Source of the DNA: a virus
Reading direction: 5' to 3' (one strand)
IMG/VR virus record: IMGVR_UViG_3300047328_000106
Location: 1 to 38,790 of that record
DNA: 38,790 nt
The notes below the pieces were generated by a model that saw only the letters and a program-made list of their open reading frames with translations, was not told where the DNA came from and ran no database searches. This document shows positions 9,764 to 38,790 of this stretch, piece by piece. A program made the translations under genes and the position numbers. Numbering within the stretch: position 1 is the stretch's first letter; every line of letters begins with the position of its first letter.

Positions 9764-12493
9764 ATGTCAGTCACCCGTCGCGACGCGGTCAAAGGCATCG
9801 GATCGCTCGGGTTGCTCGCGGCGATGGACCGCGCATATGGGCGCAACCCGCGCGGGTTCGTCGCGGGCAGCTCGGGGCCGGCGCGCAACTATGTCGGCGT
9901 CAACGTGCCGGGCGTGAATTACTACTCGTCTGCGCAGCATTTCATCAACATCCTAAAACTCGCGAACAACCCCAGCAACGGTGTTGATGGAACCTGGTCG
10001 CCGGTGCCGAGCGGTTCCTACTACGACATCCAGATGGATGCGGACGGGTACCCCACCTCGATGACGGGGATCAGCGGCGCCACCTACACTGGGTTCGCGA
10101 CCAGCATTTTCCTCGGCATCAATTACGGTGGTCCGACAACCAACGTGCCGGTAGGAATGACCGCGAACACGATTTACCCGCCGGGCAGCTACACCCTGCA
10201 GTTCCTTGGCATTGGCACGATCACGATCAGCGGCGATGTGAGCTACACCCTGACGAGCACCACTGCAGCGGGGGCGCGCGGCACGTTCAACATTACCAAT
10301 GCGACGCGCACCGGGATAAAGTTCACAGTCTCCGGCGTCATCAACAGCTCGCCGGGCAACTACATTACCGCGGCGGCGTGCTGTCAGACTTCGCTGATGG
10401 GCGCGTACACCGGCACAGGAGGTGCCTACAACGCCGCCACGACGCCGATCCAGAACTTGTACACCGGCGGCCTGATGTTCCATCCGAACTTCAAGGCAAC
10501 GCTGGCCAATTACAGTCTGCTGCGATTCATGGACGCGTTCAACACGAACAGCCAGCTGCAGGGCATGTATTTAGGTCCGGCCGCGATTCCCTCGACCGCC
10601 ACGTCGGCCACCATGTACAACGACAACGGGTGGGATGACAAGACCTACACCGTGTCGACCTGGGGAAACGGCACCGCCGCGGGGTCCACGAGCGCCGTGC
10701 TGACCAAGGCGCCTTCGGCTGGCCGGTTCAATTTCATCACCAGCGACGGGCAGGTGCGCGCAGTCATTCTGGTGGCGTCTTCCACGACGATTACCTGGAG
10801 CGGCGCGCTGACCGGGACGCCGACGACCGCGCTGTCCGCGCAGCAAGCCAACACGCCGGATCACTCGGTGCAATTCACCGCTGCACCGTCGGGCACCGGC
10901 GGCAGCACGGTCGCCGCGCTCGCGGCCGGCACCTACGATCTGTTTTTCAGCGACGGCCAGAAACACCGCGTGGTGCAAGGTGCGTCCTCGACCAGCGTGT
11001 CATGGACAGGGTCCATTACCGGTAACCCGACTGTTGTGGCGTGGGCCGTGCCCATCAATCCGTGGCCGCTGCCAACCGGCACTTACGTGTTCACGATGGC
11101 CAGCGGACAGCCGATCCCGGTTAGCTGCACGATCAATTCGGAAGTCATCACCTGGCCGGCGTCGTTGCTGACGACCGCGATTCCGTTCGGGGCCAACGGG
11201 GCGACCGGCAACCAGTACACCCGCAGCGCGTGGTGGCACGTCATGCGCAACTGGTCGGATCGCACCTTGCCCACCAACTTCACGTATGGCGCCGCTCGAG
11301 GCATGCCGTTTGAGGTGGCGATGCAGCTGTGCATCGAGATGAGTACCTATAACGGATTCGCCGTCGATATGTGGTGGAACGTCCCGCCGAACGCGCCTTG
11401 GAACTTGGCCAACGGCGCCAATGGTGCCTACGACACGACCTGGTACACGAAGATGGCCGCGCTGGCCGCGACCGGCAATGATGGGTCCGGCATCAAGCTG
11501 CCCGGCATGACCGGCATCAGCGGCAAGTTCTACATCGAATGGTCCAACGAGACCTGGAACACCAACTTTGAGGCGTACAACTACGCGCAGGCGGTGGGTG
11601 GCTACCGGGCGCCGCTGTCGCTCAACAATTACGCCATGACCCAGTGGCACGGCATCGAATGCGCCTCCATCGGGCAGGCGTTTTTCAACCAGTTCGGCAA
11701 CACCGCGTTCCAGAACCGCATCACGGTGAGCTTTGGCTGCCAGAACGCCGGCAACGGCACCTACGGTGCCACAGGGTTGGGATTCCAGGCGCAGGCGCCT
11801 TCGTGGGTGTCGCTGGGCTATACGGCGCCGTACCTGCAGGTGGGTTCCGGCACTTCGACGCCGGTCGTGACCGGTTTCCATATCGCGCCCTACTTCAACA
11901 CCGGCGGCGTCGGCGGTATGACGAATACCTCGTCCGGACAGGCCGACCAATTGCGCATTCTCGGGCTGAGCACCGGCGACCCCACGTACGCGGCCGCGCT
12001 GGACGAATATTTTTCGCTCGCCTACAAGAACGTCGGCGCAAGTGGTTACACGTACGCCAGTATCGCGTCCGGCGGATGGATCGGCGACATCATTGCGCAG
12101 GCCAACAAGTTCTACCAGGGCGCGGCTTTCGTTGGCAAAGGCTGGGCCAACCTGCAGCGTCTGAGCTACGAAGGTGGCGAAGGGTTCCTGTCGTCCAGCA
12201 CCACCGGCTGGAATGCGTTCATGTGGTACGTGCATTCGGACCAGCGCATGTCCTATTGCTACTACGACCCGTCGCCGGGATCGCCGGGACATCTGGCAGG
12301 CACTGGGCTCATGCCGGGACTCGCCGGGACAGGCCTGCAATTCCTGACGCAATTCAACGCTTGCGCGGGTTGGACCGCTGGCAACCCATGGGGCGCCGTG
12401 GACAGCGCCATGCAGCTATCGGCGTCCGCCAGCGTTCCCGTTGCCACCAGCTGCCCCAAGTACCAGGGGCTGCAGAACTACATCTTGGCCTGA
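9764..12493 (+). CDS. Large protein with Tat-like signal and GH-A-like domain
   Basis: 909 residues, 2 bp after the previous gene. The N-terminus VTRRDAVKGIGSLGLLAAM has a twin-arginine-like motif followed by a mildly hydrophobic stretch. After a beta-rich segment (to about 240) comes LLRFMDAFNTNSQ (about 255), a likely first barrel strand. Three related beta repeats follow at about residues 320, 389 and 439. Then come WSDRTLPTN, MPFEVAMQLCIEM and the motif FYIEWSNETWN, in which Asn595-Glu596 matches the acid/base NE of clan GH-A hydrolases. I recall a family of secreted proteobacterial proteins with VDMWW..P and a (V/I)E(W/Y)SNE(V/T)WN signature. It may cleave or bind an exopolysaccharide; the substrate is unknown. 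Confidence 0.7.
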   Translation: MSVTRRDAVKGIGSLGLLAAMDRAYGRNPRGFVAGSSGPARNYVGVNVPGVNYYSSAQHFINILKLANNPSNGVDGTWSPVPSGSYYDIQMDADGYPTSMTGISGATYTGFATSIFLGINYGGPTTNVPVGMTANTIYPPGSYTLQFLGIGTITISGDVSYTLTSTTAAGARGTFNITNATRTGIKFTVSGVINSSPGNYITAAACCQTSLMGAYTGTGGAYNAATTPIQNLYTGGLMFHPNFKATLANYSLLRFMDAFNTNSQLQGMYLGPAAIPSTATSATMYNDNGWDDKTYTVSTWGNGTAAGSTSAVLTKAPSAGRFNFITSDGQVRAVILVASSTTITWSGALTGTPTTALSAQQANTPDHSVQFTAAPSGTGGSTVAALAAGTYDLFFSDGQKHRVVQGASSTSVSWTGSITGNPTVVAWAVPINPWPLPTGTYVFTMASGQPIPVSCTINSEVITWPASLLTTAIPFGANGATGNQYTRSAWWHVMRNWSDRTLPTNFTYGAARGMPFEVAMQLCIEMSTYNGFAVDMWWNVPPNAPWNLANGANGAYDTTWYTKMAALAATGNDGSGIKLPGMTGISGKFYIEWSNETWNTNFEAYNYAQAVGGYRAPLSLNNYAMTQWHGIECASIGQAFFNQFGNTAFQNRITVSFGCQNAGNGTYGATGLGFQAQAPSWVSLGYTAPYLQVGSGTSTPVVTGFHIAPYFNTGGVGGMTNTSSGQADQLRILGLSTGDPTYAAALDEYFSLAYKNVGASGYTYASIASGGWIGDIIAQANKFYQGAAFVGKGWANLQRLSYEGGEGFLSSSTTGWNAFMWYVHSDQRMSYCYYDPSPGSPGHLAGTGLMPGLAGTGLQFLTQFNACAGWTAGNPWGAVDSAMQLSASASVPVATSCPKYQGLQNYILA

Positions 12494-13392: not shown

Positions 13393-13707
13393 ATGCAAGA
13401 GCGCACCGTAGACGAACAGAATCTGGTCGATCGCGCCAAGATCCTTGCCCGGGTGCGCGAGGAGAGCAAGATCTTCCGCGAGGTGTTCGGGTTGCCCGGG
13501 GAGCGTACCCGCCACGGTCAGGTGATCTTGGACGTGCTCCACCGCAAGTTCGGCCGCGGCCTGCCGAAAAACGTGTGCGACGACCACGGACGCACCGACG
13601 CGCTGCAGACCTGGCGCAACCTCGGCCACTACGACGTGCTCGAGGCCATTCACGAAACCATCACCTGGAAGGAATCCGACCATGCCCACAGCAGCAGCAC
13701 CCCTTGA
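13393..13707 (+). CDS. Bbp19-like phage protein
   Basis: 104 residues. The core IFREVFGLPGERTRHGQVIL, then DVLHRKFGRG and the late TWRNLGHYDVLEAIHETI, resembles the Bbp19-like domain found beside capsid genes of Bordetella phage BPP-1 and relatives. The domain is small, helical and of unknown biochemical role; its constant position next to scaffold and capsid suggests a head-assembly function. It lacks a strong ribosome site. Its end overlaps the scaffold start by 26 nt in another frame. Confidence 0.7.
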   Translation: MQERTVDEQNLVDRAKILARVREESKIFREVFGLPGERTRHGQVILDVLHRKFGRGLPKNVCDDHGRTDALQTWRNLGHYDVLEAIHETITWKESDHAHSSSTP

Positions 13708-14638
13708 ATCCGCCGCGGCGCCGGCCGCGCTTGCCCCCGCCGCCGCTGCTGCGCCCGCTGCAGGCGCTCCTGCAGCCGCGGCCGCGCCGGTAGGGGATGC
13801 CGGCGCCCCGGCTGCCAATCAGGCTTTCTGGGATTCCTGGACGGGCGACGATCAGAAAGACGTGCGCGAGTTCGTCGCGAACAAGAAATTCGCCGATCCT
13901 TTCCAGCTGGCCAAGTCCTACCGCGAGATCGAGCAGCTCGTGCCGACGCTGCGCGCCGCGGCGGCGCTGAAAGGGTATCCCACCGAAACCAAACTGCCCG
14001 ATGGCACCGTGAAGCCGGCGGACCCTGCTGCGGTCAAAGCCTGGAATCTTGCCACCGGCGTGCCGGAAACCCCGGACAAGTACGACCTGGCCAACATCGA
14101 GAAATCGCCCGGCGCTGATCCGCTGTTTACGGAAGAGCTGCGCAAGGAGCTGCATGGCGCCAATGTGCCGGCCGCGCTCGCCACAAAGCTCGCTGCCGGT
14201 TACGAGCGAGCCGTGCAATCCGCCATGCAGCGCTTCCAGCAGCAGCAGGATGCAGCAAGCGAACTCGCGATGAAGGAGCTCGAGCGCGCCTGGGGATCGC
14301 AGTACCAGGAGCGCGTGGAATTCGCGCGCCGCGGCCGCGAGTTCCTCTCCAGGGAAGTGGGCGGCCTGTCCTCGGAGCAGCTGCGCGGCATGGAGCAGGT
14401 GCTGGGCACCGACAAGTTCCTCTCCGTCATGTGGAAGTTCGGCGCCGGCAATGGCGAGGCGCGTTTCGCCGGCGGCGAAGGCAGGCCCGCCACGTTCGGC
14501 AATAGCGTCGCCGAGGCGCAAGCCTCGCTCGCCGACCTGCAGGCGCGCCGCGTGGCAGGTTCGGTGTCGAAATCGCAGTTCGATGAACAGTCGAAGCCGC
14601 TGATCGATATCATCACCGGCGGCATGAAACCCGCCTAA
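13682..14638 (+). CDS. Capsid scaffold / assembly protein
   Basis: 318 residues from ATG 13682, with AAGGA 8 nt upstream. Residues 1-45 are an Ala/Pro tract, typical of disordered scaffold N-termini. FWDSWTGDDQKDVREFVANK and LAKSYREIEQLVP follow, a pattern shared by podovirus scaffolds, and then a long helical, charged middle (RFQQQQDAASELAMKELERA). The C-terminal segment (SVSKSQFDEQSKPLIDI) would contact the capsid shell. It lies directly before the major capsid gene, as expected, but 203 bp of highly structured non-coding sequence separates them. The call rests on composition and position. Confidence 0.8.
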   Translation: MPTAAAPLESAAAPAALAPAAAAAPAAGAPAAAAAPVGDAGAPAANQAFWDSWTGDDQKDVREFVANKKFADPFQLAKSYREIEQLVPTLRAAAALKGYPTETKLPDGTVKPADPAAVKAWNLATGVPETPDKYDLANIEKSPGADPLFTEELRKELHGANVPAALATKLAAGYERAVQSAMQRFQQQQDAASELAMKELERAWGSQYQERVEFARRGREFLSREVGGLSSEQLRGMEQVLGTDKFLSVMWKFGAGNGEARFAGGEGRPATFGNSVAEAQASLADLQARRVAGSVSKSQFDEQSKPLIDIITGGMKPA

Positions 14639-14644
14639 GAGAGC

Positions 14645-14789
14645 GCGCGCGGGGGGCTTGCATGTGCCCGAAACGCGTCACACAGTCCGATCCACGAATG
14701 CGGACAAGGCGAGGACCTCGCCCCCGCTGACGAGGAGAAAGCTCCTGGCGTAGACCGGACCCGTCCGGTTAGAAGAGCCCCCCGCGTGC
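14645..14789 (+). ncRNA. Candidate multi-branched structured RNA upstream of capsid gene
   Basis: Between scaffold and capsid genes the transcript can fold into a closed junction. The outer helix pairs 14645-14659 with 14775-14789: 15 pairs, two of them G-U, built on six G against six C. Inside, almost without spare bases, are hairpins 685-689/701-705, 708-713/717-722 (3-nt loop), 725-728 plus 733-737 pairing with 742-750 (4-nt bulge, AAAG loop) and 754-759/764-769 (CCCG loop), all offsets from 14000. A weak fifth helix is 663-666/681-684. No U-tract follows, so it is not a terminator. The segment has no coding frame. It could control capsid translation, act as a processed RNA or take part in packaging; none of this is shown. 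Confidence 0.6.
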
Positions 14790-14841
14790 CGGGACAAGGC
14801 CTTCGAGAAGTCCGCTGTGTAGACCTTTCGGAGGATTCCTC

Positions 14842-15759
14842 GTGTCAACCAATCTCGTCACGTTCTACGTTCAGCAGTACGCCAAGGTGCTGAACGAGCT
14901 CGTCCAGCAGAAGAGCGCCCGGCTGCGCAAGTTCGTCACCGAGGACAAGTATCTCGGCCAGGCCGCGTCCCCGGTCGAGCAGGTCGGCATCGTCGCCATG
15001 CAGCCTGTCACGCAGCGCTACGGCCCGATGCAGCGCAACGATGCGCCCACCGACCGGCGCTGGGTCTACCCAAACGACTACGACCTGCCGCAGCTATTCG
15101 ACAACTTCGACAAGCTGCGCCTGCTGATCGACCCCAAGGGCAAGTTCGTCTCGAACGCCCACAACGCCGCGAACCGTCAGTATGACGACCTCATCATCGC
15201 GGCCCTGGGCGGCATCGCGCAGACCGGCGTCACGGCGCAGAACTCCATCTCGCTGCCCGCCGGCGAGATTGTCTCCGTGCAGCAGGGCGCGACCGCCCCG
15301 ACCGGCCTCACGGTCGCCAAGCTCCGCCAGGCGAAGCTGATCCTGATGCAGAACGAAGCCTACTCGGACGAGGAAGAGGATCCGGGCGATCCGCATTCGG
15401 GCCTCGTGTGCGTCGCCGGCGCGCGCCAGCTCGACAACCTGATGGCCGAGGCCCAGGTCGTCAGCCGCGACTACAACGACATGCCGGTGCTGGGCGAGGG
15501 CCGCGTGAAGCGCTTCCTCGGCATCGAGTTCGTCCGTTCCGAGCGCCTGCAGACGGGTACCGACGATCAGGCGGGCACCTCGACCAAGTGCTTCGTGTGG
15601 CAGAAAGAAGGCATGCACCTCGGCATCTGGAACGACATCACCACGAACATCAGCCAGCGCCACGACCTGCAGTCGGAGCCCTGGCAGGCTTACGTGTTCA
15701 TGACCGCGGGTGCGACCCGCCTCGAAGAGAAGCGCGTCGTCCAGGTGTGGACGCGGTAA
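14842..15759 (+). CDS. Major capsid protein (BPP-1-like)
   Basis: 305 residues from GTG 14842, placed by a strong GGAGG at 14830-14834 with 7-nt spacing. The sequence looks like the HK97-fold capsid proteins of BPP-1-like podoviruses: a helical N-terminus (VTFYVQQYAKVLNELVQQKS), RRWVYPNDYDLPQLFDNFDK in the E-loop/P-domain region, and a C-terminal strand pattern ending RLEEKRVVQVWTR. The length and the gene order scaffold-capsid-decoration fit. No maturation protease is evident. A multi-branched RNA-like structure precedes its ribosome site and may set its high expression. Confidence 0.85.
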   Translation: MSTNLVTFYVQQYAKVLNELVQQKSARLRKFVTEDKYLGQAASPVEQVGIVAMQPVTQRYGPMQRNDAPTDRRWVYPNDYDLPQLFDNFDKLRLLIDPKGKFVSNAHNAANRQYDDLIIAALGGIAQTGVTAQNSISLPAGEIVSVQQGATAPTGLTVAKLRQAKLILMQNEAYSDEEEDPGDPHSGLVCVAGARQLDNLMAEAQVVSRDYNDMPVLGEGRVKRFLGIEFVRSERLQTGTDDQAGTSTKCFVWQKEGMHLGIWNDITTNISQRHDLQSEPWQAYVFMTAGATRLEEKRVVQVWTR

Positions 15760-15811: not shown

Positions 15812-16495
15812 ATGGCTGTCGTCAATACCAAGTCCACCACCGTCTCGAACTACGACGCGTCCCCGCGCGTCCTGACCTCCGGCTATCTCGCCGGCGCCAA
15901 CGACACCGTGCAGGTGGCGACCGCCGCGGCCGGTGCCACCGACTCGATCGGCTCGACGTACCGATTCGGCTTCATCGGCTCGGGGCGACGCATCGAGGAC
16001 ATCCAGATGATGAACGATGCCACCACCACGGGTGTGTGGCAGCTGGGGGTCTACTGCAACACGCAGCAGTCGCTGAACACCGGCCTGTTCCTGAATACCT
16101 GGATCTCGACGACCGCGTACGTCCCGGGCAACGTCGTGCAGTACAACGGCATCGTGTACTACTGCACCACGGGAAACACCAACAGCGCACCGCCGAGCGC
16201 CAATTGGACGACCGGCAACGCGATCGTCGCGGCCGCGGGCGCCATCCCGGTGCCGAATGCCAACCTGATCCTGGGGTCCGGCATCAGCACCGCGGCGGCC
16301 AACGCCAACTGGAAGAGCGTCTACTCCCCGTCGGTGGGTGCGGTCGGGTTCCTGGCGGCGAACGTGAACCTGCGCCTGTGGGAGCTCATGGGCTTCGCCA
16401 CCGATCCCGAATACCTCTTTCACGTGGTGCTGACCGCAACGACCGCGCCGACGGCCGCCGGCAACATCTCGCTGCAGATCACCTGGGTGGCGTAA
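15812..16495 (+). CDS. Capsid decoration-like protein carrying a carbohydrate-binding-like insert
   Basis: 227 residues from ATG 15812, with AGGAG 9 nt upstream. The gene directly follows the capsid gene, where podoviruses of this type encode a small beta-rich cement protein. The N-terminus (SPRVLTSGYLAGANDTVQVA) and the C-terminal strand pattern (LQITWVA) fit a jellyroll-like decoration protein. Residues 97-132 form a separate module: Trp, then TAYVPGNVVQYNGIVYYC, then Asn/Pro residues and a closing Trp. This is the spacing of CBM5/12-like chitin/cellulose-binding modules. Nearly the same module recurs in the tail nozzle at 18034-18144. It may display sugar-binding sites on the capsid surface. 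Confidence 0.7.
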   Translation: MAVVNTKSTTVSNYDASPRVLTSGYLAGANDTVQVATAAAGATDSIGSTYRFGFIGSGRRIEDIQMMNDATTTGVWQLGVYCNTQQSLNTGLFLNTWISTTAYVPGNVVQYNGIVYYCTTGNTNSAPPSANWTTGNAIVAAAGAIPVPNANLILGSGISTAAANANWKSVYSPSVGAVGFLAANVNLRLWELMGFATDPEYLFHVVLTATTAPTAAGNISLQITWVA

Positions 16496-17110: not shown

Positions 17111-17722
17111 ATGGCGGGCGTGATTGATATTGCCAATGTCGCCCTGGAGATCCTGGGCAAGCCCGCGATCACGAGCCTGCTCGATAACTCGAACGCGGCG
17201 CGAGCGATCAATTCCACGTACGACATCACCCGGCGCGCGCTGATCGCCGGGCGTTCGACCTGGCGCTTCTCGGTGAAGCGCGCAAGCCTTGCCCCCTCAG
17301 CCGTTCCGGTCGTCTCCGGCCCCTACGCCACGCAGTACCCGCTGCCGTCCGACTGCCTGCGTGTGCTGCTCGCTGGCGACACCTATCCCGGCCTCGATCT
17401 GTCCGATTACCGCATGGGCCCCACCGATGCCGGGTATGTGGTCGAGGGACGCATGATCCTGTGTGACTACGGCTCGCCGCTGTCGTTGCAGTACGTTGCC
17501 GACATCACCGACACCACGATGTTCGATCCGTGGTTTGTCATGTACCTGGCCGCCGAGCTCGCCTGGGTCAACTGCGAGCGGCTCACGGGGTCTGACGCCA
17601 AGCAGGAAGCGGCCAAGCAGCGCAAGGAGGATGCCCGCAGCAACGCGGTCGCCTCCGACGCGCTCGTGAACACCCCGCAGTTTCCGGCAGATGACACCTG
17701 GATCCTTTCGAGGATGCAGTAA
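17111..17722 (+). CDS. Tail tubular protein A-like (gp11-type adaptor)
   Basis: 203 residues from ATG 17111, with GAGG just upstream. IDIANVALEILGKPAITSLLD, then TRRALIAGRSTWRFSVKRASL and LPSDCLRVL, is the characteristic pattern of T7 gp11-like gatekeeper proteins, which sit between portal and nozzle. The C-terminal helix AELAWVNCERLTGSDAKQE fits too. The length matches the family. Its TAA shares one base with the start of the nozzle gene, as in T7-like phages, where the two tail tubular proteins are adjacent. Confidence 0.85.
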   Translation: MAGVIDIANVALEILGKPAITSLLDNSNAARAINSTYDITRRALIAGRSTWRFSVKRASLAPSAVPVVSGPYATQYPLPSDCLRVLLAGDTYPGLDLSDYRMGPTDAGYVVEGRMILCDYGSPLSLQYVADITDTTMFDPWFVMYLAAELAWVNCERLTGSDAKQEAAKQRKEDARSNAVASDALVNTPQFPADDTWILSRMQ

Positions 17723-20712
17723 TGGGCAAGGCCAGCCCGGCGATCGCCGCCTTCAACGCCGGCGAGTTCGCTCCCCAGATGGAGGGGCGCACAGATGTCG
17801 AGAAGTACGCGATCGCCGCGCACATCCAGCAGAACTTCCTGCCCCTGAAACAGGGACCCTCGATGTACCGGCAGGGCACCGCGTTCGCCCAGGCCGTCAG
17901 GAATGCCGCGAACCGCACCTGGCTGGTCCGCTTCGAGTACTCGCAGACGCAGGCCTTCGTGCTCGAATTCGGGAACCTGTACGTCCGGTTCTACACCCTG
18001 CACGCACCCCTCCTGTCGGTCGGCAATGCGGCCTGGAATGCGGCGACCGCCTACGTGCTCGGCAACCAGGTCGTCGCCGGCGGCATGACGTACTACTGCA
18101 CCGCGCCCAACACCAACGTCGCCCCGCCGAACGCGGCCTACTGGTACCCGATGACGGCTTATCAGGGAGGCGCGAGCGCAATCTACGAGATCCCCTCGCC
18201 CTACCTCGCCGCGGACCTGACCGACGCGCTGGGTGAGTTCACGCTGCAGATCAAGCAATCCGGGGACGTGCTCTATATTGCCGCCGGCGCCGCCACCGCC
18301 GTCACGGCCACCGGCTACCCGCCCTTTACCCTGACCCGGTATGCCAACAACCCGCCCAACTGGCAATTCGCGCGCTATGCCCCGGTGGATGGCCCGTTCT
18401 CAAGCGCCGTACCGCTCGTGCAAGGCCAGAAAACCGCGCTGGCCGTGTCGGCCGCCAGTGGCAACGGCATCACGATCACCGCTGTCGGGTATGCGCCCCC
18501 TTTCGCCGCGACCGATGTAGGCCGCCTGGTCAGGATCGCGTCCCAGACTTTCAACGTGACGCCCTGGTCGACGCAGGCCGCGTTCGCCGCCGGCGCCACC
18601 TGCAGCAACAACGGGAACAACTACGTCGCGCTCAACGCCGCGACCACCGGCGGATCCCCGCCCGTGCACACCTCGGGCGCGGTGCTGGATGGGCCCACCG
18701 GCGTGCGTTGGCTCTACACGGACTCCGGATATGGCATCGCACAGATCACCGGGTTCACGAACGCCGGCAGCGTCACGGCCAACGTGCTGCTGCAGTTCCC
18801 CGCGAACTGCGTCGGCTCGAGCGCCGCGATCACGGCCGCCAGCGCCGCGAATCCCTGCGTGCTGACGGTGGCCAATGCCTTCGTGACCGGCGAGGCGCTC
18901 TTTGTCACCGGCGTCACCGGCATGACGCAGCTCAACAACAACGTCTACACCAACGGCACCGCGAACGGCGCCAGCGTCACCCTGGCCGGGACCGACTCGC
19001 GCACATTCTCCGCCTACACCGCCGGCGGCACCGTCTACGGGAATTACTCGGTCGAGTGGCAGCTGGGCGCCTGGTCGAACACGACCGAGTGGCCGCGGGC
19101 CGTGGATATCTTCAAGGATCGGCTGTATTGGGCCGGGCGCCTGACCCTGTGGGGTTCCGTGCCCGGGCTCTACAACAGCCACGCGCAGGACTTCAACGGG
19201 CAGGTCACGACGGACGCGGCCACCAACAACACCGTGTCCGGAGGCGACTGCTCGAACATCGCGTGGCTGTCGGCCGCGCAGATCCTGCTCATCGGCTCTC
19301 AGGGTGGGGAGTATGGCCTCGATGCCGCCAACTACTCGAGCGCACCGCTGGGCCCGGCCAACATCGAGATCCTGCGCCAGTCGCAGTGGCGGGTGAGGGC
19401 CATCCGCCCCGAGCTCGCCGGCACCTCCGTCCTGTACGTGCAGCGTGCCGGGCGCAAGGTCATGGCCATGGACTACAACTTCTACCTGAACCGCTACGAC
19501 TCGACCGACCAGTCGAAGTACTCGTATCACATCACGGTGGGTGGCGTGACCCAGATCGCCATGCAGCAGGAGCCTTTCGAGGTCCTGTGGTGCGTGCGCG
19601 CGGACGGCACGCTGCTCTCCTACACCTTCAACCGCGAGGACAACGTCACCGCCTGGGCGCGGCACAACCTCGGCGGCAACGGGATCGTGGAATCCATCTG
19701 CGTCATTCCCGCGCCCGACGGGCTGCGCGATGAACTGTGGATGGTGGTCAACCGCACTATCGCCGGCGTCGTCACTCGCACGGTGGAGTACCTGACAAAG
19801 CATTTCGAGGGGCCGCAGGGCGGCTACGCCGGCGATGCCCTAGCCTCTGCCTGGTACGTCGACTGTGGTGTCCAGTACCAGTCCCCGACCTTCGCGACCA
19901 TCGCCGGGGCCATTGTGCAGTTCAGCACCACCGGGCAGACCATCGTCGTGTCCGCGGCCAACGGGTTCAAGGTCGGCCAGGTCGTGACGCTGGCCGGCAT
20001 GCAGTACACCGGCACCTTCAACCCGAACATCAGCTGGTCAATCACCGCAGCCAATTCCACCGGATTCACCGCCGTCAATGCGCAGTTCGGCAACCTTGGC
20101 AGTTTCCAGTACGTGTCCGGTGGCACCGCGACGCAGGGGTCACAGCAGGCCGGCACGACGACCATTACCGGGATCCCGGCCGTCCTGTGCGGCCAGACGG
20201 TCTCGATCCTCGCCGATGGGAACGTGCTGCCGCAGCAGACGGTTTCCGCTGCAGGTACGCTTACGTTGCCGGGCGTCTATGCGCTGGTGACGCTGGGGTT
20301 CTCGTACCAGGGGAACCTCGTTCCCATGCGTTTCGAGGGTGGGGCGGACGTAGGTACCGCGCAGGGCAAGATGAAAAAGGGTCAGAACCTCGTGCTGCGC
20401 TTGGTCGATTCCGGTGGCACCAAGGTGGGGCAGCTGTCGAATATCAACACCGTGACGGGTGTCTATCAGGACCCTCTCGGCGTGCTGAATCAGCAGGTCG
20501 CCCTGCTCGAGAATGTCCGCTACAACAGCACCACGACCCCGCTCGACTCCCCGCCTCCCCTGCAATCCGGGGATTTCCCGGTGTCGTTTCCCTCGAATGC
20601 GAACTCCGATCAGGACGATCGGGACTTCTACGTGCTGGTCCAGCAATCGGCCCCGCTGCCCACCACCGTCGTCGGGCTCTACCCGTCCTACAAGGTCGAG
20701 GATCCGCAGTGA
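17722..20712 (+). CDS. Tail tubular protein B-like nozzle protein with inserted modules
   Basis: 996 residues. The start FNAGEFAPQMEGRTDVEKY and FLPLKQGPSMYRQGTAF, followed by RTWLVRFEYSQTQAFVLEFG, is typical of podovirus nozzle proteins (gp12-type). Modules are inserted: a carbohydrate-binding-like unit at residues 105-141, a looser related unit at 282-330, and an FCCH-like beta repeat at about 369-440 (AFVTGEALFVTGVTGMTQLN) with a second, weaker one at about 724-807. The core resumes with WSNTTEWPRAVDIFKDRLYW and SQWRVRAIRPELAGTSVLYV. It would form the hexameric tail tube to which the tailspike attaches. The modules may give weak surface-sugar binding. Confidence 0.85.
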   Translation: MGKASPAIAAFNAGEFAPQMEGRTDVEKYAIAAHIQQNFLPLKQGPSMYRQGTAFAQAVRNAANRTWLVRFEYSQTQAFVLEFGNLYVRFYTLHAPLLSVGNAAWNAATAYVLGNQVVAGGMTYYCTAPNTNVAPPNAAYWYPMTAYQGGASAIYEIPSPYLAADLTDALGEFTLQIKQSGDVLYIAAGAATAVTATGYPPFTLTRYANNPPNWQFARYAPVDGPFSSAVPLVQGQKTALAVSAASGNGITITAVGYAPPFAATDVGRLVRIASQTFNVTPWSTQAAFAAGATCSNNGNNYVALNAATTGGSPPVHTSGAVLDGPTGVRWLYTDSGYGIAQITGFTNAGSVTANVLLQFPANCVGSSAAITAASAANPCVLTVANAFVTGEALFVTGVTGMTQLNNNVYTNGTANGASVTLAGTDSRTFSAYTAGGTVYGNYSVEWQLGAWSNTTEWPRAVDIFKDRLYWAGRLTLWGSVPGLYNSHAQDFNGQVTTDAATNNTVSGGDCSNIAWLSAAQILLIGSQGGEYGLDAANYSSAPLGPANIEILRQSQWRVRAIRPELAGTSVLYVQRAGRKVMAMDYNFYLNRYDSTDQSKYSYHITVGGVTQIAMQQEPFEVLWCVRADGTLLSYTFNREDNVTAWARHNLGGNGIVESICVIPAPDGLRDELWMVVNRTIAGVVTRTVEYLTKHFEGPQGGYAGDALASAWYVDCGVQYQSPTFATIAGAIVQFSTTGQTIVVSAANGFKVGQVVTLAGMQYTGTFNPNISWSITAANSTGFTAVNAQFGNLGSFQYVSGGTATQGSQQAGTTTITGIPAVLCGQTVSILADGNVLPQQTVSAAGTLTLPGVYALVTLGFSYQGNLVPMRFEGGADVGTAQGKMKKGQNLVLRLVDSGGTKVGQLSNINTVTGVYQDPLGVLNQQVALLENVRYNSTTTPLDSPPPLQSGDFPVSFPSNANSDQDDRDFYVLVQQSAPLPTTVVGLYPSYKVEDPQ

Positions 20713-37604: not shown

Positions 37605-37820
37605 GTGATATTGCCGCGTGATCGGGTCATCGAATTGACGGGGCGTAAGCGCCCGAGCGCCCAAGTGCGCTGGTTGAACCGTCACCGGTGGCAGTTCACA
37701 GTCAACGCGCTCGGCGAGCCGGTGGTGGCGCTCGCGGAGTTCAATCGTCACATGGTTGGCGGGCAGCCCGCGCGCCGCCAAGAGCCCGATTTCAGGGGGA
37801 TCAATGGGACGGCCGCGTAA
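37605..37820 (+). CDS. DUF4224 protein preceding the integrase
   Basis: 71 residues from GTG 37605 with GAGGTG 5 nt upstream. RDRVIELTGRKRPSAQVRWL, then WQFTVNALGEPVVAL matches DUF4224, small proteins usually found immediately upstream of phage tyrosine integrases; they may assist excision or regulate integrase. The same frame is open back through the hexamer repeat, so an Arg-Gly-rich extension is formally possible. It overlaps the integrase start by 17 nt. Confidence 0.75.
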   Translation: MILPRDRVIELTGRKRPSAQVRWLNRHRWQFTVNALGEPVVALAEFNRHMVGGQPARRQEPDFRGINGTAA

Positions 37821-38790
37821 ACGCGACAAGCACCTGCCGCGCCGGATGTACCTGGTGCACGGCGGTTACTACTTGCACCCGAAAGGTGCGAAGCCGGTGC
37901 ACTTGGGTCGCGACCTGCCGGGCGCGCTCACCAAGTACGCGGGCCTGATCGGCAACCAGTGGGAAGGCCGCACGCTGGGCGATGTGATTGACCGTTACCG
38001 AGCGGAGGTGTTGCCGCTGAAGCGCTCCGCACAGACCCGCACGGACCAGGGCACCGCGCTTGGGCGCCTGCGCAAGGCCTTCGGGCACATGTTGCCCGAC
38101 AACATCACCGCCCAGCATTGCTACTCCTACCAGGACGCGCGCCGAGGCTTGAACGGTCAGCCCGTGCCCGTCGCCGCCCGCCACGAAGTTCAGCTGCTTG
38201 GGCACGTGCTCGCCAAGGCAATACGCTGGGGCATCGCCACACGTAATCCCGCCCGGAGTCTGGACCTGGGGCCGCGAACGCCGAAGCGCCGGCGGGTCAC
38301 GATGGACCAAGTAGAACAGCTTCGCGCCTTGGCCGACGAGCGGATGCGCGTGGCGATCGATTTTGCGGTCAGCCTTGGGCAGCGCCGCGGGGATCTGCTG
38401 AACCTGCGGCGCGAGCAACTGACTTCGGCCGGCATCTTGGTTAAGCAATCCAAGACCGGCGCCGAGGTGCTGATCGAGTGGAGCGCAGACCTTGAGGCGA
38501 TCGTCGCACGCGCGAAGGCGCTGACGCCGCAGGTGCCCGGCGAGTACCTGATCCGGAAGCGCAACGGCCGGCCGTACAGCCCGGGCGGGTTTGCCTCGAT
38601 CTGGAAGCGACTGATGTACAAGGTCGTCAAGGCCGGCGGGCAGCGCTTCACCTTTCACGACCTCAGGTCGGTGTCGGCCGACGGTGCAGCGACGCCTGAG
38701 GAGGCGCGTGACCGGCTGGGGCACACAGACGTGGCCACGACAAAGCGGCATTACTTGCGGGGCGTCGTGAAGGCGAAGCCGCGATCATGA
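37804..38790 (+). CDS. int: Tyrosine site-specific integrase
   Basis: 328 residues. ATG 37804 follows AGGGGGA; the open frame further upstream is only the shadow of DUF4224. The N-terminal arm- and core-binding parts (residues 1-170) include GRPRKRDKHLPRRM and DVIDRYRAEVLP. The catalytic domain shows Arg194 (LGQRRGDLLNL), Lys217 (KQSKTG), His285-x-x-Arg288 (HDLRS), His307 (LGHTD) and the nucleophile Tyr317 (RHY). All five expected residues are present, so it should be active. It would catalyse integration of the phage into the host chromosome. Its stop is the last codon of the window, so the attachment site is probably just outside. Being downstream of the Cro-like operon, it may be expressed with the early genes. 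Confidence 0.92.
   Translation: MGRPRKRDKHLPRRMYLVHGGYYLHPKGAKPVHLGRDLPGALTKYAGLIGNQWEGRTLGDVIDRYRAEVLPLKRSAQTRTDQGTALGRLRKAFGHMLPDNITAQHCYSYQDARRGLNGQPVPVAARHEVQLLGHVLAKAIRWGIATRNPARSLDLGPRTPKRRRVTMDQVEQLRALADERMRVAIDFAVSLGQRRGDLLNLRREQLTSAGILVKQSKTGAEVLIEWSADLEAIVARAKALTPQVPGEYLIRKRNGRPYSPGGFASIWKRLMYKVVKAGGQRFTFHDLRSVSADGAATPEEARDRLGHTDVATTKRHYLRGVVKAKPRS

Follow-up and report, generated by a model that had tools for sequence, protein, structure and literature searches.

A structured leader RNA upstream of the phage major capsid gene and a putative scaffold protein as its candidate reader

The 203-nt gap at positions 14639-14841 of virus record IMGVR_UViG_3300047328_000106, which separates a putative scaffold ORF from that of the major capsid protein, contains a real and previously undescribed structured RNA. 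About 80-90 related phages carry the element immediately ahead of their major capsid gene, and the architecture of the RNA differs from the one drawn in a first-pass annotation of the window (the whole stretch of 38,790 nt analysed here). Two internal loops of the RNA change in lock-step with one residue of the neighbouring scaffold-type protein, which suggests, as far as comparative sequence evidence goes, that the scaffold reads the capsid leader RNA to tune capsid production. The features of the locus are collected in Table 1.

Table 1. Features of the scaffold-capsid region and of the leader RNA in the window.
Feature	Positions	Strand	Basis
Putative scaffold / capsid-assembly protein, 318 aa	13682-14638	+	PHROG 3742; residue-loop co-variation; AlphaFold2 helices
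5' arm of the closing stem drawn in the first-pass annotation	14645-14659	+	Complementarity private to this genome, outside the conserved element
-35-like hexamer TTGCAT	14658-14663	+	TTGNNN, N17 and -10-like hexamer fixed before P1 in the main group
-10-like hexamer CACAGT, poor here	14681-14686	+	TAGCGT in most relatives
P1: GCGG / ACAA / GGCGAG-GAC-CUCGCC / C / CCGC	14700-14727	+	Covariation
First 4x1 internal loop (P1), ACAA opposite C	14704-14707 opposite 14723		
Conserved UGAC linker	14728-14731	+	UGA invariant in 29 close sequences
P2 hairpin, AAAG loop	14733-14746	+	Covariation
P3 hairpin	14753-14770	+	Covariation
P4: GAAG / A / GCC / C / CC...GG / ACAA / GGC / CUUC	14772-14804	+	Covariation; swap test
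Second 4x1 internal loop (P4), ACAA opposite C	14794-14797 opposite 14780		
P5: 14800-14808 paired with 14826-14834; arms CCUUCGAGA.../...UUUCGGAGG, the 3' arm being the Shine-Dalgarno sequence	14800-14834	+	Shine-Dalgarno pairing; arm co-evolution
Shine-Dalgarno sequence GGAGG of the capsid gene	14830-14834	+	Pairs with CCUUC in P5
Major capsid protein, 305 aa, GTG start	14842-15759	+	Pfam Phage_capsid_2, E 1.5e-62; PHROG major head protein

The gap between scaffold and capsid genes is present as first annotated, the scaffold label itself being putative. We infer a scaffold function for the product of 13682-14638 from its position, its helical prediction and weak family matches: all 26 homologues match PHROG 3742 (function unknown), 19 of the 26 also match PHROG 'protease' families, and two give a Pfam hit to the T7 capsid assembly protein. 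A structure search with its AlphaFold2 model (mean pLDDT 76.7, lower around residue 70) returned no significant solved relative. Other elements of the first description were recovered as well, namely the capsid Shine-Dalgarno (SD) sequence near the gap end, hairpins separated by short linkers, and the lack of an intrinsic terminator, a terminator scan having found no terminator-like site (hairpin followed by a U-tract) in the gap. Elsewhere in the window, an integrase-family phage ORF at 37756-38790 (+) runs off the window end, and given this ORF the phage may be temperate. Possible CBM_5_12-like carbohydrate-binding modules occur at 15812-16495 and 17722-20712 (both +), the former barely above and the latter below the Pfam cut-off.

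Loci for comparison were collected by a capsid protein search, which gave 46 viral contigs, and by an alignment-based capsid search, which gave 80 more loci partly overlapping the first 46; DNA patterns added others. Two covariance models, R1 and then the wider R2, locate the element immediately ahead of the capsid gene in almost every homologue, including those whose capsids are only about 42% identical, and the GenBank phage record MW202898 carries it at 52.6 bits. All 12 near-full genomes hold one copy, and the model search found no credible second copy in the window genome; a weak unfiltered match at 10988-11097 (-), antisense within a large ORF (19.5 bits, E 0.015), is probably due to chance. 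The distance between the element and the capsid start is 17-60 nt across 78 loci. A cis role is preferred because there is one copy per genome, always at this short distance from the capsid start. In L031-L034, L040, L041, L149 and their relatives the element seems to extend over the 3' end of a small ORF that precedes the capsid gene, and there the same bases may serve both coding and RNA structure.

The newness suggested by the first-pass annotation was borne out by Rfam 15, none of whose 4227 models matched anywhere in the window; no family reached its gathering threshold, and in a permissive search the best, RAGATH-10, scored 15.5 bits against the 41.2 needed. The covariance models had no match in the cultured relatives HTVC010P, Baldr, Skadi, ZP6, VP5, YeP5, Piluca and TPWB-05. 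A pattern search for prophages returned one viral contig, L069, in a beta-proteobacterial MAG; L066-L068, considered as prophage members of the family, were rejected as unrelated coding DNA. Our literature search found no paper describing this leader RNA, and for the related pelagiphage Skadi no ribonucleotide switches were identified (PMC10504331).

The helices P1-P5 form a grammar that fits 32 of 33 close relatives. Two-sided changes are seen in 19 of the 29 pairs, and the score is 0.372, against which shuffled controls score 0.121 and slid controls no more than 0.105. A tree-aware covariation test, our own reimplementation modelled on R-scape in which substitutions are redistributed along the tree, was applied to 78 sequences and 5050 column pairs; it returned 18 significant column pairs, 17 of them helix pairs. 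The homologous gaps thus carry the compensatory changes expected of a genuine RNA, and because of this covariation we regard the element as certain. A diverged clade without P2 and P3 retains P1 and P4 together with their loops, which suggests that these two loops are the core. L145, L146, L152 and L163 carry reduced forms that lack P2 and P3 but have both ACAA loops in place, and an extra tandem P1-P2 unit, again with an ACAA loop, lies upstream of the full element in L050 and L051 (reverse strand).

Members of the main group carry a TTGNNN-N17-(TA)NNNT box pair whose end lies 7-14 nt ahead of P1, which places the start of the RNA just before that helix; in the window the transcription start is predicted at about 14694. 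The best box pair is correctly placed in 68% of all members against 29% of shuffles. A stock promoter scan of the window did not list the pair at 14658-14686, and some clades have no recognisable promoter.

The closing stem that the first-pass annotation had made the core of the junction, 15 bp between 14645-14659 and 14775-14789, did not survive comparison. It was counted as 14 continuous pairs in the window; the other loci with a testable gap have 4-8, equal to shuffled controls, and the closest relative, L069, has six, that is, no such stem. The complementarity is thus specific to this genome and occurs in none of the other tested loci, and we rejected it as the core of the element since the homologues lack it. 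Because its 5' arm extends into the -35 box TTGCAT, an RNA started at the promoter would be without it. The whole gap folds at -92.4 kcal/mol (z = -3.0), and this strength depends on the same 14-15 bp of genome-specific complementarity. A folding energy better than shuffled sequences accordingly holds for the gap as a whole and fails for the true leader, 14694-14841, where z = -1.09 and 26 of 200 shuffles are equally good. Taken alone, the energy comparison would have spoken against a structured element. Folding energy was dropped as proof of the leader; as its non-significance there says little either way, the decision rests on the comparison with relatives.

One short strand belongs to two helices. 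CUUC (14801-14804) closes P4 by pairing with GAAG and also enters P5, where CCUUC pairs with the GGAGG of the SD sequence; in 74 of the 78 phages the strand that closes P4 is also the one pairing with the SD. In swaps of the P5 arms between phages, own arms gave -12.7 and swapped arms -9.3 kcal/mol (0 of 5000 permutations), and short-strand swaps gave 0 of 5000 for GAAG/CUUC and p = 0.003 for the switch strand with the SD, all of these permutations ignoring relatedness. GAAG/CUUC changes in concert to GAGG/CCUC or GAAA/UUUC. The predicted nearest-neighbour cost of freeing the SD has a median of 7.4 kcal/mol and is 6-7 kcal/mol in the window. In the predicted folds of L145, L146 and L152, read by eye, the SD pairs with the apical P4 strand by another route. 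Judged by energy, SD pairing sets the real arms little apart, since 91% of shuffled arms likewise pair at least half of the SD; it was dropped as proof and replaced by the arm-swap tests. Two mutually exclusive pairings that both co-evolve are the pattern of a translational switch. With compensatory changes, a fixed position and an alternative structure that masks the SD, the element belongs among structured cis-regulatory mRNA leaders.

In the 18th significant pair, letter 4 of the P1 loop is coupled to its counterpart, letter 4, in the P4 loop (E = 0.008, 1200 simulations); the letter 3-letter 3 pair ranks next and is not significant alone (E = 1.3). The relation is one of identity, not complementarity. 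Across the 78 sequences letter 3 is A/A in 73, C/C in three and U/U in two, with no mixed case, and letter 4 is A/A in 50, C/C in 23 and mixed in five, several of which look misaligned in our judgement. Both loops are 4x1 (A-Y-A-N opposite one C), and their polarity is opposite in P1 and P4. On the capsid tree letter 4 has changed some 11-12 times per loop, independent pairs always in the same direction.

If one factor reads both of these loops, which drift in concert, it should drift too. Columns of the neighbouring proteins (about 640, of which 94 in the scaffold) were scanned for prediction of loop letter 4, covering the scaffold and five other nearby proteins, the capsid among them; too few loci reach the portal or the genes ahead of 13 kb for these to be included. 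The best columns by gain are all in the putative scaffold, namely F70 (0.97-1.0), Y80, A94 and L96, while the best columns elsewhere reach 0.76 in the capsid and at most 0.88 (tail tube A) in the other proteins. Tyr occupies position 70 in all 17 AC/AC phages of a wider set, in two of three CC/CC phages, and in none of the 40 AA/AA and two UA/UA phages; the AA/AA phages carry Phe (22), Trp (17) or Leu (1). Loop letter 4 (A or C) agrees with residue 70 (F70, or Y when the letter is C) in 58 of the 59 phages of the capsid-tree set. The exception is L006, with CC loops and yet F; L052 has mixed loops. This link is built on 9-10 changes on the capsid tree, with six supported independent pairs and none opposite; a sign test on the approximately six well-supported independent switches gives p ~0.03.

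Two close comparisons illustrate the switch. In the sisters L026 (AUAA, F) and L027 (ACAC, Y) both loops switch together with residue 70, P2 and P3 are common to the two, and the capsid proteins differ by five conservative differences; L088 (AUAA, F) and L036 (AUAC, Y) switch likewise. The capsid protein, considered as the RNA reader, was rejected in view of its best column of 0.76 and of the near-identical capsids of L026 and L027, whose loops both differ. In the scaffold model residue 70 falls in the turn between the predicted helices 56-67 and 73-94, within an N-terminal motif, NK[NKG][FWY]xDPxxLAKSYxxLE, that makes up a helix-turn-helix-like segment. The fold and position of the element, its mutually exclusive helices, the identity of the loops and their lock-step with residue 70 were all established computationally.

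We propose as the probable mechanism that the scaffold binds the twin loops, stabilises P4 and frees the SD, and so matches capsid production to scaffold supply. A host-type promoter within the gap would start the capsid mRNA just before P1. When CUUC pairs with GAAG, P4 would be closed and the capsid SD free; when CUUC sits at the base of P5, the SD would be masked. The N-terminal helix-turn-helix-like segment of the scaffold may recognise the P1 and P4 loops, probably as a dimer, as twin loops of opposite polarity would suit a two-fold symmetric reader. Binding would hold P1 and P4 together, stabilise P4 and turn capsid translation on, and capsid output would be proportional to free scaffold. 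What we infer is that the scaffold binds the RNA directly, recognises it as a dimer and acts as an activator. Among the roles first offered for the RNA, cis-regulation is well supported by position, covariation and a helix that masks the SD in competition with P4. The setting of the capsid-to-scaffold ratio is likewise well supported, the RNA loops co-varying with the scaffold protein. Nothing in the analysis supports exonuclease blocking or a role in packaging, and in the latter case the cis position before the capsid gene, with no Rfam match of any kind, argues against a phi29-type packaging RNA.

The main rival, which we consider unlikely, keeps the partner and reverses the sign: the scaffold would bind the leader near the SD and block the ribosome, such that excess free scaffold lowers capsid synthesis. 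The link between residue 70 and the loops applies equally to this repression, and P4, with only 17-60 nt between its end and the start codon, is within reach of the ribosome footprint; however, the P4-intact form, which is the bound one, leaves the SD free in both the main family and the diverged clade. A homotypic loop-loop contact within the RNA is improbable. Here the switch would work without protein or sense something else, and the scaffold correlation would reflect linkage. Letters 3 and 4 are indeed identical in both loops, and the opposite polarity in P1 and P4 would suit two-fold docking, but such a contact leaves unexplained why residue 70 tracks letter 4 in 58 of 59 phages when the adjacent capsid columns do not.

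We give very little credence to a metabolite riboswitch controlling capsid translation. The SD-masking helix with its competitor could serve as an expression platform, but a ligand pocket should be fixed, whereas between close phages the internal-loop letters under the strongest constraint change together; it is the other unpaired segments (UGAC, AAAG) that are conserved, and no Rfam riboswitch matches. Equally far-fetched is a transcription-level element at the start of the late transcript (put-like antitermination or an RNA stabiliser), for although the RNA adjoins the promoter of a long structural operon, its constant short distance from the capsid gene and the SD-masking helix point to translation, no terminator is nearby, and the promoter is missing in some clades.

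If scaffold-controlled translation is correct, the locus offers a concrete RNA switch open to testing, in which the partner protein is named and one contact pair, residue 70 with loop letter 4, can be exchanged. The element also represents a new family of structured RNAs that is common among uncultured phages and goes unseen in genome annotation. In the cultured relatives Vibrio phage VP5 (L173) and Alteromonas phage ZP6 (L168) the last ~200 nt before the capsid start, between the same two genes, hold a different leader, in which a GGGTAGC/GGTAGCC motif occurs twice; a near-consensus promoter (of the TTGACT-N17-TATAAT type in VP5) precedes the capsid gene, and the scaffold has a related segment. 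This repeated-motif leader is perhaps an analogous twin-site RNA. More speculatively, and we hold this as a tentative idea, the FxDPxxLAKSYxxLE-like motif common to the N-termini of phage scaffold proteins could be an RNA-reading module, scaffold control of capsid translation via twin-loop leaders could be widespread in tailed-phage assembly, and specificity pairs could be rewired by one residue (Phe/Tyr) and one base (A/C).

How the ratio of capsid to scaffold is set is an old question, usually answered by promoter strength or by scaffold autoregulation. In P22, free scaffolding protein adjusts the synthesis of a head-assembly protein post-transcriptionally by acting on its own gene. The mechanism proposed here would likewise have free scaffold adjust the synthesis of an assembly protein after transcription, although through a dedicated leader RNA with twin recognition loops before the capsid gene instead of through the scaffold's own gene. 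The coat proteins of MS2 and PP7 are structural proteins that regulate the translation of a phage gene by reading a small RNA structure. Our proposal shares this logic and differs in that it concerns dsDNA tailed phages and a scaffold-type protein, and in that the leader has several hairpins, two loops and an alternative helix for the SD. Ribosomal-protein leader RNAs are protein-responsive mRNA leaders that match protein stoichiometry, as is proposed for this leader; here the proteins are phage assembly proteins, and no Rfam leader family matches. The Mu-gpT-DE motif is, like the present element, a candidate structured RNA linked to a phage head gene; the window matches no Rfam model, and Mu-gpT-DE was not confirmed among those models. 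In T7, the phi10 promoter between the scaffold and capsid genes starts the structured gene 10 leader. The arrangement described here is similar, with a separate promoter between the same two genes and a structured capsid leader; unlike in T7, the promoter is of the host type and the leader carries conserved, competing helices.
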